From Clostridia bacterium (GTDB lineage: Bacteria > Bacillota > Clostridia > UMGS1883): 44,100 bases of DNA. The translations under genes and the position numbers were made by a program. The notes under the pieces were generated by a model. It was not told the origin of the DNA. It saw nothing but the letters and a program-made list of their open reading frames with translations, and did not search any database. The number at the start of each line of letters is the position of its first letter. The stretch's first letter is position 1. Shown in pieces: positions 21,443 to 43,662 of this stretch. The DNA lies in assembly GCA_017411435.1 (NCBI GenBank), contig JAFQQD010000015.1, positions 1 through 44,100 of the forward strand, in the 5' to 3' direction.

Positions 21443-21783
21443 ATGTGAGTAATCTGAACGGTCGCGGCAGTATTTTTATACTGATGAGGAAAGTCCGAGC
21501 TTCGCAGGACAGGATGCCGGAGAAATCCCGGTGGAGGCGACTCTAAGGAAAGTGCAACAGAAATAAACCGCCTGCCTCAGCAGGTAAGGGTGGAAAGGCG
21601 GGGTAAGAGCCCACCGACATTGCGGTAACGCTTTGTGCCATGTAAACCCCATCCGAAGCAACGCCGACTGGATTGGTCTGTCCGACCTATAATCCGAAGG
21701 GCGGCTGGAGCCATGTAGAGATATATGGCGTAGATAGATGACCGTTTTTAATGACAGAACTCGGCTTACAGGATTACTCATAC
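21443..21783 (+). ncRNA. rnpB: RNase P RNA, bacterial class A-like
   Basis: The catalytic RNA that removes 5' leaders from pre-tRNAs. Universally conserved segments are present in order: GAGGAAAGTCCGAGCTTCGC with ACAGGATGCC, GTGCAACAGAAATAAACCGC, AAGGGTGGAAAGGCGGGGTA with AGAGCCCACCG, and near the 3' end ACAGAACTCGGCTTACAG. The closing P1 helix is GAGTAATC (21447-21454) with GATTACTC (21772-21779), extended by outer pairs. Ends are set by P1 and are accurate to a few bases. A strong terminator follows immediately. Confidence 0.97.
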
Positions 21784-21816
21784 AAAAAACAGACTTCATA
21801 TGAAGTCTGTTTTTTA
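21784..21816. terminator. Bidirectional terminator after rnpB
   Basis: AAAAAACAGACTTCA and TGAAGTCTGTTTTTT form a perfect 15-bp hairpin with an AT loop and T runs on both strands. It ends rnpB and can also end the minus-strand AEC-transporter operon. Confidence 0.92.
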
Positions 21817-33499: not shown

Positions 33500-34864
33500 T
33501 TATACCGCAATCCCGAGCATAAGAACTGCTATCTCAAAATAGATGAGAAGCGAAATTGCATCTACAATTGTTGTAATGAACGGACTTGCCATAACTGCGG
33601 GGTCAAGTCCTATTTTATCGGCAATAAGAGGAAGTGTGCATCCGACAATCTTCGCCACGATAACATCGAGCAAAAGTGTGATTGATATTACAAGTGCCAC
33701 CATTACCCCGAGATTGTCAAGAAGAATAAGTTTTGCCATATTTACCACCGCAAGTGCTATTCCGCAAAGAACTGCAACGCGCATTTCTTTCCACAAAACT
33801 TTAAGAATATCTGAAAATTCTATCTCGCCGATTGAAAGTCCACGAATTACGGTAACGGATGACTGACTTCCGCAGTTACCTCCCGTCCCCATAAGCATGG
33901 GAATCGATGCTACCAGCGCAATCTGTGCTGAAAGCGCATTTTCAAACCTTGTTATTATCATTCCCGTAAATGCCGCTGAAATCATAAGTATAAAGAGCCA
34001 CGGAATACGGCTTTTGAAAATTTCAAATGCACTTGTTTTAAGATACGGTTTTTCAAGGGGCATGATAGCACCCATTTTTTCAATATCTTCGGTGGTTTCT
34101 TCCTGCAATACATCGACTACATCATCGATTGTTACGATACCGACAAGGCGGTTTTCTTCGTCTACTACGGGCATTGCGGAAAAGTCGTATTTAACAAAGT
34201 CAAGCGATACCTTTTCCCTGTCCTCTGTCGTGAGGGCAAAAATTACTTCCTCAGTCATAATTTCGCGGATTTGCGTATTTTCTTCTGAGAAAAGAAGTTG
34301 GCGCATTGTCACGATACCAAGGATTTTGCGATTTCGGTCTGTTACATAACAGGTGTTGATAGTTTCCTTGTTAATACCTGTTTTCCTGATATGGTTTATA
34401 GCGTCCTGAACAGTCATATCAGGGCGAAGACGCACATATTCGGTAGTCATAATACTGCCCGTGCTGTCTTCGGGATATTTTAAGATTTCGTTTATAAGTT
34501 TTCTTTTTTCGGGGTCTGCCTGACGAAGTATTCTTTTTACTACATTTGCAGGCATCTCTTCTACAAGGTCAACTGCATCATCGACATAAAGCTCATCGAC
34601 TACGGCTTTAAGTTCGCTGTCGCTGAAGCTCTGAATAAGAAGTGCCTGTCGGTCTTCTTCCATCTGTGTAAAGGTTTCTGCCGCAAGCTCCTTTGGAAGA
34701 AGTCTGAATATGAGCGGGACCTGTTCCTTTTTACACTCTTCAAGCACCGCTGCAATGTCTGCCGCGTGCATAGTTCCCATCGCATCGCGCAGCGATGCGT
34801 ACTTTTTGTTTTCGATAAGACTCATCAGCATTTCGCTGAGGAGCTGCTGCTTGTTTTCTGTCAT
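33500..34864 (-). CDS. mgtE: MgtE-type magnesium transporter
   Basis: A Mg2+-gated magnesium channel of the inner membrane. The 454-residue protein has the N-terminal superhelical domain (about 1-135), two CBS domains (GSIMTTEYVRLRPDMTVQDA and IREIMTEEVIFALTTEDREK) and five C-terminal membrane helices with the pore region GTGGNCGSQSSVTVIRGLS. ATG 34864 follows AGAGGG and matches the family N-terminus; an in-frame ATG at 34939 lies inside the leader structure and is not used. The leader encodes a short peptide and folds over the SD, see separate entries. Confidence 0.95.
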   Translation of the reverse strand: MTENKQQLLSEMLMSLIENKKYASLRDAMGTMHAADIAAVLEECKKEQVPLIFRLLPKELAAETFTQMEEDRQALLIQSFSDSELKAVVDELYVDDAVDLVEEMPANVVKRILRQADPEKRKLINEILKYPEDSTGSIMTTEYVRLRPDMTVQDAINHIRKTGINKETINTCYVTDRNRKILGIVTMRQLLFSEENTQIREIMTEEVIFALTTEDREKVSLDFVKYDFSAMPVVDEENRLVGIVTIDDVVDVLQEETTEDIEKMGAIMPLEKPYLKTSAFEIFKSRIPWLFILMISAAFTGMIITRFENALSAQIALVASIPMLMGTGGNCGSQSSVTVIRGLSIGEIEFSDILKVLWKEMRVAVLCGIALAVVNMAKLILLDNLGVMVALVISITLLLDVIVAKIVGCTLPLIADKIGLDPAVMASPFITTIVDAISLLIYFEIAVLMLGIAV

Positions 34865-34870
34865 ATTAAT

Positions 34871-34935
34871 CCCTCTTTCTGTTTTTTTGAGGGACAAAGA
34901 GGCTACTCTGCATCTACACAAAAACAGACGCAGAG
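34871..34935 (-). promoter_or_regulatory. Structured mgtE leader: hairpins sequestering the SD
   Basis: Hairpin A pairs 34926-34935 with 34906-34915 (CTCTGCGTCT with AGATGCAGAG, one G-U) and lies within the last codons of the leader ORF. Hairpin B pairs CCTCTTT (34902-34896) with AAAGAGG (34878-34872), covering the mgtE SD AGAGGG; a competing CCCTC (34893-34889) can pair with the same SD. No T run follows, so control would be at translation. The sequence does not show M-box landmarks. Confidence 0.5.
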
Positions 34936-34980
34936 CCATCTACTTCGTCCTGTTATACCGTTATTCCCACCTGCGTCCAT
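34903..34980 (-). CDS. Putative 25-residue leader peptide upstream of mgtE
   Basis: A short ORF with a strong ribosome binding site (AGAGGTGAG, 3 nt before ATG in the form AAA spacer) ends in TAG 38 nt before the mgtE start. The peptide begins MDAGGNNGITGRSRW and ends LCVCFCVDAE, with a hydrophobic, Cys-rich stretch followed by acidic residues. Its 3' half encodes one arm of hairpin A, so ribosome position on it could decide whether the mgtE SD is free. I do not recognise the peptide. Regulatory function is inference from layout; conservation among relatives would settle it. Confidence 0.45.
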   Translation of the reverse strand: MDAGGNNGITGRSRWLCVCFCVDAE

Positions 34981-35012
34981 TTTCTCACCTCTTTTGTTAT
35001 TTTTTATATAAG

Positions 35013-35420
35013 TTAGTTTTTAATTACTCTTGTGTTTTCCTGGTTTTTATATATCACAAATTTACAGAATAAAAATTCCAATACGAAATTTGAGAGCATC
35101 GTTACGGCAAGGATTATGTAGTCGTTGATGCCTGCCGTTTCCGCCAAATGCCCCAGCCATGTTGAAAGTGGCGTAAATACGGCGTAAAATCCGAAAAGTT
35201 TCGCCATCGCTACGGGGATATTTGCCGCTGACTTAAATGTGTACTGTCTGTTTAATGTAAAATTCCAGATGATTGACAGTATAAGCGCGATAAGATACGA
35301 TGGCCAGTATATCCAGCCGAAAAACTCGTTGAAAAGAGCAAATGATACTACCTGTATTATTCCTGCAGATGCTGAAAAAAGAGTGAATTTCATCATCTGT
35401 ATAACTGATTCTTTTTTCAT
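35013..35420 (-). CDS. GtrA-family membrane protein
   Basis: A 135-residue protein with four hydrophobic segments, matching GtrA-like proteins that help move lipid-linked sugars for surface polysaccharide decoration. Typical features are KFTLFSASAGIIQVVSFALF, the NFTLNRQYTFKS segment after helix 2, and LSNFVLEFLFCKFVIYK at the end. ATG 35420 has AAAGGG nine bases upstream; a TTG at 35438 would overlap the preceding gene. It is the last gene after mltG and the DUF3006 gene. Confidence 0.87.
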   Translation of the reverse strand: MKKESVIQMMKFTLFSASAGIIQVVSFALFNEFFGWIYWPSYLIALILSIIWNFTLNRQYTFKSAANIPVAMAKLFGFYAVFTPLSTWLGHLAETAGINDYIILAVTMLSNFVLEFLFCKFVIYKNQENTRVIKN

Positions 35421-35424
35421 AAGT

Positions 35425-35640
35425 TTATTCCCTTTCAAAAAGTTTTCTCATTTTTTCTTCTATCATAGCTTTTCTTTTTTCCGTTTCCTCTGCTTCTATG
35501 ATATACACTCCGTCATCAAAAAGCACGACATCCCCCTCTTTCGCACCCTTAATCTGGGTTTTAGGAACATCAAATGTACCGCCCTCCTCTTTTTCAAGAA
35601 CGGCAAATTCGCCTTCAAATCTGTCGATTATATATTTCAT
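35425..35640 (-). CDS. DUF3006-family small protein
   Basis: A 71-residue protein (YIIDRFEGEFAVLEKEEGGT, VPKTQIKGAKEGDVVLFDDG) that matches the small beta-barrel DUF3006 family common in Firmicutes; function unknown. A charged helix (EETEKRKAMIEEKMRKLF) ends it. ATG 35640 follows AAGGAAG. It sits 14 bp after mltG and 4 bp before the GtrA gene, so all three are one transcript. In other Firmicutes DUF3006 genes often accompany metallo-hydrolases of the ComEC type; one is in this window, but not adjacent. Confidence 0.82.
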   Translation of the reverse strand: MKYIIDRFEGEFAVLEKEEGGTFDVPKTQIKGAKEGDVVLFDDGVYIIEAEETEKRKAMIEEKMRKLFERE

Positions 35641-43396: not shown

Positions 43397-43656
43397 TTTT
43401 TAGATACAAACAAAAAGACCCCCATCCCACAAAGGGACGAGAGTTCTCGCGGTACCACCCTTATTCAAAGCAAGATTGCTTTGCACTTTTGTCGCTTTAT
43501 CGCAGCGTCACGCCTTGCTTAACGCAATAATGCTTTTCGCAAAGGGCTCCCGCGCTGAAATTCAAATTTGCGCACAATGGAAAAACTTTCAGCCCATGAT
43601 TTTCCCTCTCTTAAAAGTGCGGTGCAAATCCTACTTACACGCGTTCATCACCATAC
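43397..43656 (-). promoter_or_regulatory. Phenylalanine T-box leader of pheST
   Basis: The invariant T-box sequence AGGGTGGTACCGCG is on the minus strand at 43461-43448, followed by the terminator hairpin CTCGTCCC/GGGATGGGG and a T run (43420-43407). Stem I comes first in the transcript, and the specifier loop reads GAATTTCAGC with TTC (43559-43557), a Phe codon. Uncharged tRNA-Phe would pair with TTC and, through its 3' end, stabilise the antiterminator, turning on pheS and pheT when charging is low. Confidence 0.93.
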
Positions 43657-43662
43657 TTTGCT

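Follow-up and report, generated by a model that had tools for sequence, protein, structure and literature searches.

Putative magnesium-gauging leader ORFs upstream of mgtE in Clostridia and neighbouring classes

Results and Discussion

In a 44,100 nt stretch of the genome of a Clostridia bacterium (GenBank assembly GCA_017411435.1, contig JAFQQD010000015.1; hereafter the window), the gene for the Mg2+ transporter MgtE is preceded by a 25-codon open reading frame (ORF) that probably serves as a ribosome-position gauge for mgtE, sensing Mg2+ through the failure of early translation. The ORF, its conservation, the constraint on its first residues and its association with Mg2+ transporter genes were read directly from sequence. 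Sequence comparison further indicates that the leader ORF is not limited to this locus and belongs to a family found across Clostridia and neighbouring classes, in which mutually exclusive leader folds, chosen by the position of the ribosome, are predicted to control the transporter.

The leader ORF of the window

The leader ORF is read from an ATG to a TAG stop codon, is led by a strong Shine-Dalgarno sequence (SD) and ends 38 nt before the mgtE ATG (Table 1), which confirmed the ORF, SD and spacing given in an earlier note on the same DNA. The gene downstream was identified as mgtE by TIGR00400 (455 bits, cut-off 233) and is itself followed by uvrC. An alternative upstream mgtE start (ATG 34939, giving 479 aa) was rejected for its overlap with the leader ORF and its lack of conservation. 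We also rejected the leader peptide as a functional small protein, there being no NCBIfam or relevant Pfam match and no constraint past approximately codon 8. When the window's genome was searched for further copies of the leader, the mgtE copy was the only exact match.

A 141 aa ORF without an NCBIfam match (window 35013–35438) ends 33 nt upstream of the leader ORF, and in three relatives from the same genus its place is taken by a different reading frame ending in LFEKK. A TTGACA/TATAAT-like promoter was noted immediately upstream at three of the loci surveyed.

Table 1. Features of the mgtE leader in the window
Feature	Position	Strand	Comment
SD of leader ORF (AAAGAGGTGAG)	34984..34994	-	its AAAGAGG can alternatively pair with CCTCTTT 34902–34896
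Leader ORF, 25 codons, MDAGGNNGITGRSRWLCVCFCVDAE	34903..34980	-	ATG at 34980; start conserved among relatives
Segment A (GGACGCAG)	34971..34978	-	overlaps leader codons 1–4; predicted partner A′ in naked RNA
Segment B (GGACGAAG)	34943..34950	-	codons 11–13, including the conserved CGA; predicted partner B′ once the ORF start is covered
Segment A′ (CTGCGTCT)	34926..34933	-	predicted partner A, or A″ if a ribosome covers A
Segment A″ (AGATGCAG)	34908..34915	-	predicted by folding
Segment B′ (CTTTGTCC)	34892..34899	-	overlaps the anti-SD arm
Anti-SD arm of masking hairpin, GTCCCTC	34889..34895	-	predicted by folding
SD arm of masking hairpin, GAGGGAT (mgtE SD)	34869..34875	-	predicted by folding
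mgtE, Mg2+ transporter	33500..34864	-	TIGR00400; ATG at 34864

Predicted folding of the leader

The leader has a folding energy of −38.9 kcal/mol compared with −26.4 ± 3.4 kcal/mol in dinucleotide shuffles (z = −3.7; 1 of 200 shuffles was equally good), and the mgtE SD lies inside a hairpin of seven pairs. The earlier note had likewise covered this SD with a hairpin and had described a second arm able to compete with it; both were recovered, the competition being richer than described there and involving the segments A, A′ and A″ as well as B and B′. A further hairpin drawn from the 3′ half of the ORF (about 34936–34925 with 34916–34905) stood only in part, since in our folding it forms only once the ORF start is covered; in naked RNA the 5′ arm is taken up by pairing with the start of the ORF (about 34984–34971 with 34933–34920). 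A search of the leader against Rfam 15 on both strands returned no family at the gathering score, and the window yielded no M-box (RF00380) even at E = 10, in agreement with what had been noted by eye. No intrinsic terminator was found on the minus strand of the window, which points to control at the level of translation.

We calculated the free energy needed to open the mgtE SD as a ribosome footprint was moved along the leader ORF, using nested folding, which ignores pseudoknots (A–A′ together with B–B′ would make one). In the window this opening cost was 5.2 kcal/mol for naked RNA, 1.7 kcal/mol with the ribosome on codons 1–3 and about 4 kcal/mol on codons 4–5, rising to about 6–8.5 kcal/mol on codons 6–15 (up to 8.5 kcal/mol at codons 7–12) and falling to 0.1 kcal/mol at the last position, on the stop codon. 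The pattern was stable over three footprints and three definitions of the SD.

The same calculation across 70 class-wide leaders gave an opening cost for naked RNA of 6.1 compared with 3.1 in shuffles, and a ribosome positioned at the start shifted this cost by −2.5 compared with +0.6 in shuffles. Family averages of the codon 10 over codon 1 contrast were above those of shuffles in 31 of the 34 families (sign test, p = 4e-7). Among the MDAGSS-type leaders, of which 48 were folded, a mid-ORF ribosome again hardens the mask (up to 8.0 compared with 3.3), while at codon 1 it releases the SD hardly at all (−0.3 compared with +0.9 in shuffles). In an alignment-free swap test, which set each leader's own regions against those of other leaders as pairing partners of the middle region, the mean rank was 0.67 for the own start, 0.72 for the own codons 7–20 and 0.73 for the own SD; three control pairings, at 0.45, 0.45 and 0.52, showed no preference for the own partner. 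We read this preference as covariation of the competing helices.

Conservation and coding constraint

The leader ORF is present in all seven sampled members of the genus, with the start AUGGACGCAGG invariant. Beyond the genus, a blind search was made upstream of mgtE at about 220 loci, picking the ORF with the best SD at each locus. Within the class-wide set, a leader ORF with an SD match of at least 5 was found at 104 of about 147 mgtE loci, compared with 39.5 in dinucleotide shuffles, and residue 2 was acidic in 68 of these 104 candidates, compared with 2.7 of 39.5 in shuffles and a background of 33 of 520 (6%) among short ORFs of equal SD in the flanks of the same loci. The carriers are spread over 35 families; around one third of mgtE loci are without such a leader ORF. 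For a named set of close relatives, chosen by MgtE similarity alone and including [Clostridium] viride and the gut anaerobe Evtepia gabavorous, the figure for an acidic residue 2 was 72 of 75. Outside the class but within the phylum, 9 of 18 candidates were related leaders (e.g. METDPGRS, MDPLPQSY and MDPDLCRR). The peptides fall into sub-families typified by MDAGGN/MDAGSSSGT...GRS (the window type), MDxHPGRS, MDGYPGRLC, MDSGPLP/MDPVPLP, MDDGPC and MEVPLPQRC.

Tandem leader ORFs were observed before mgtE in four genomes, with an ORF of the MESG..S..ID type about 430–470 nt upstream and a second ORF near mgtE; the proximal ORF is of the MDPVPLP type in two of these genomes and MDSGPLP in another.

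A grouped estimate of pN/pS was partly circular, the groups having been chosen by motif, and was replaced by a test on the named set with no residue filter. This gave a pN/pS of 0.09 at codon 2, 0.42 at codon 3, 0.4–0.7 at codons 4–8 and approximately 1.0 at codons 9–15, values that come from related sequences and that may include some constraint at the RNA level, as segment A overlaps codons 1–4. Asp2 is encoded by GAC in 83 cases and GAT in 49. The low early pN/pS, together with this mixture of GAC and GAT, indicates selection for the amino acids themselves at the first residues and none of this kind in the tail. The C-terminal end LCVCFCVDAE, which had been singled out in the earlier note, is accordingly not a signature and is not conserved; the conserved part is the first few codons (Met-Asp...).

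Codon choice is strongly biased at two places, to a degree that pairing does not account for. In a recurrent Gly-Arg motif, Arg is encoded by CGA in 56 of 59 leaders compared with 50 of 269 at other positions of these ORFs, and the third base of the preceding Gly codon is free. Among Ser codons, AGT accounts for 135 of 211 early ones and 14 of 157 late ones. Conservation of CGA as a pure pairing effect was rejected: mean pairing is 0.68 compared with 0.63 for the whole ORF, so that pairing explains CGA partly at most. One thought is that CGA might be a slow codon sited where the ribosome best holds the switch closed.

Association with magnesium transporter genes

From 33 mgtE leaders we built a model that uses sequence alone (R1) and ran it over 291 genomes of the class. 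Its top matches were mgtE leaders, and the new contexts that it returned were a remote MgtE paralogue, at three loci (two of them confirmed by TIGR00400), and mgtA P-type ATPases. The matches before mgtA were MESGSGCDIKPKRR (E = 0.0015), MDSGGYVPV (E = 0.004) and MDSDDHTRR (E = 0.03), of which the latter two are weak if taken alone. Because MgtA is unrelated to MgtE, these matches provide independent support for the magnesium link. Three other matches (E 0.002–0.004) were judged from their context to be due to chance. Direct inspection of three mgtA leaders revealed short ORFs with acidic residues and proline, including MDGSPDGLC and MSDESSSGMEPDG; mgtA is present in only 8 of 148 class genomes and few of its leaders can therefore be surveyed. 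In several genomes (eight loci) the leader ORF is preceded by an M-box.

Upstream regions of corA gave no general leader-ORF signal. At two loci of one genus, a short ORF (MG[TA]DPYH...) with an acidic residue and proline close to its start was noted before corA.

Proposed mechanism and alternative explanations

In naked leader RNA, A would pair with A′ and the mgtE SD would be closed in its hairpin. A would be covered whenever a ribosome stands on the first three to five codons, leaving A′ to pair with A″, and B, thus freed, would pair with B′ and take up part of the anti-SD, making mgtE translatable. Once the ribosome has advanced onto codons 6–15 it would cover B instead, allowing the anti-SD to close on the SD and turning mgtE off. 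This position-dependent masking is a computational prediction, from which, together with the sequence data, we infer operation in the cell with Mg2+ as the signal and early ribosome failure as the sensor. At low Mg2+, ribosomes may slow on the Met-Asp... start, or drop off and restart, so that they would dwell at the start and mgtE would be made; with ample Mg2+ they would run through the leader ORF and mgtE would stay silent. Full loss of ribosomes would leave naked RNA, which is predicted to be masked, so the model calls for ribosomes that either start again repeatedly or pause at the first codons, as has been argued for mgtQ. As the clostridial leaders agree with mgtQ, mgtL and corL in position, acidic start, target genes and switch logic, early ribosome failure or pausing at low Mg2+ would be the most likely sensor. 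The window peptide (MDAGG, in which Asp2 is the sole acidic residue and early proline is absent) is a weak fit to the known destabilising motif, and ribosome destabilisation at MDAGG is a candidate step. Translation-coupled control similar to that of mgtL, as put forward in the earlier note, is supported as the best explanation, given that relatives conserve both the ORF and the stems and that no known riboswitch matched; the checks suggested there (relatives, coding constraint, covariation and Rfam) were all run, with results that favour the observation.

It is unlikely that the signal is not Mg2+ but the supply of amino acids or tRNA, read by leader-peptide attenuation at arginine (CGA), proline or serine codons. 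Such sensing would be in keeping with the CGA and AGT biases, the former not clearly due to pairing, and with the reported response of Salmonella mgtP to charged tRNA-Pro, but the sub-families have no such codon in common (the PLP group is without Gly-Arg and the window group without early Pro), and what they do have in common is the acidic residue 2. Moreover, the genes downstream encode Mg2+ transporters and are not amino-acid genes. More doubtful still is a metal or metabolite riboswitch, with a pseudoknot of A–A′ and B–B′ as the aptamer and the ORF as a by-product or second layer. No Rfam family was matched, constraint acts at the amino-acid level with third bases free, and the helix sequences differ wholly among sub-families that retain Met-Asp; these points weigh against the pair of conserved, interleaved helices seen in the genus of the window, the low folding energy and the invariant block at the ORF start, which would suit an aptamer. 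In those genomes with an M-box before the ORF, a direct Mg2+ sensor is, in addition, already supplied.

We regard plain translational coupling as the least probable of these alternatives. Here the ORF would just bring in ribosomes that open the mgtE SD or re-initiate at mgtE, with no sensing involved, and the short spacing, the masked SD and the very low opening cost with a ribosome at the stop codon are all compatible with it in the window. Many leaders, however, end more than 80 nt upstream of mgtE, and coupling leaves unexplained the selection on residue 2, the fading of constraint along the ORF and the harder mask produced by a ribosome in mid-ORF.

Comparison with known systems

Like the enterobacterial MgtL, MgtQ and CorL, the clostridial leaders consist of a short SD-led ORF in the leader of an Mg2+ transporter gene. 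Selection on early acidic or proline residues is evident for the family, in which about a third of leaders carry an early Pro, and is weakly represented in the window, which has Asp2 only and no Pro. For mgtQ, corL and mgtL the logic of ribosome position in the leader is backed by experiment (PMC8092293, PMC11552253, PMC11282234).

The closest mechanism to that proposed here is MgtQ of the Salmonella mgtC-mgtB intergenic region, in which Asp2 and Glu5 restrain translation of the leader ORF and the mgtB RBS is released via alternative stems (1:2/3:4 or 2:3) (PMC8092293). Asp2, translational control and the freeing of a downstream RBS by ribosomes held on the first codons would be common to both, whereas MgtQ has 8 codons within an operon, the clostridial ORFs have 20–40 codons in a leader, and the sequences are unrelated. 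MgtL, encoded in the mgtA leader of Escherichia coli and Salmonella, is also a short ORF before an Mg2+ transporter gene, with an acidic residue 2 and with alternative leader folds set by ribosome progress; in E. coli, ribosomes drop off at its EPDP motif in low Mg2+ and the output is Rho-dependent termination (PMC11282234). Some clostridial leaders share PLP with it (MDSGPLP, MDPVPLP and MDYPDPLP), but they belong to another phylum, their target is mostly mgtE and not mgtA, their output looks like SD masking, and alignment of the peptides is limited to Met-acidic plus, in some cases, PLP. The window peptide, without proline or a second acidic residue, is nearer to CorL, from the corA leader of E. 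coli and Salmonella, which shows mgtL-like behaviour despite few acidic or proline residues (PMC11552253). Translation of CorL is inversely related to expression of the transporter, as we suggest for the clostridial leader, although its output is Rho-dependent and the gene is a different one.

Two RNA elements also associated with mgtE appear distinct from these leaders. The M-box (ykoK leader) likewise precedes mgtE in Bacillota, but is not found in the window and elsewhere forms a separate element upstream of the leader ORF. The mgtE motif SRC-65-1 is a candidate cis-element whose model takes in the mgtE SD and AUG; it is reported only from Thioalkalivibrio with no leader ORF described (PMC11109978), and is set apart on the basis of that description.

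As far as the open-access literature shows, Mg2+ sensing by translation of a leader peptide is known so far only from enterobacteria. We found no earlier description of the clostridial leaders in the open-access papers searched. What appears to be new here is an unrelated peptide, mostly before another gene and in another phylum, with an apparently translational output and sometimes behind an M-box. Tentatively, and with some doubt, we suggest that the Bacillota may hold a large undescribed superfamily of leader ORFs, common to mgtE and mgtA, that would read Mg2+ via ribosome stability at the first codons. These ORFs would work independently of any M-box or second leader ORF, even where they lie behind one, as some do, and their conserved CGA would mark the position at which a ribosome is most effective in holding the switch shut. 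If so, bacteria in general would use the ribosome to sense Mg2+, and the strategy would not be peculiar to enterobacteria. Should one principle govern both mgtE and mgtA throughout Clostridia despite unrelated peptides, it would either be old or have arisen more than once, and the ribosome as a general Mg2+ gauge would become directly testable. Where an M-box and a leader ORF are stacked before one gene, direct and ribosome-based sensing could be compared on a single transcript.

Other RNA elements in the window

Two further RNA elements were identified in the window at a distance from mgtE. RNase P RNA class A is present on the plus strand (21446–21784), and a T-box leader on the minus strand (43430–43657) exceeds the gathering score and probably belongs to the downstream phenylalanyl-tRNA synthetase genes.
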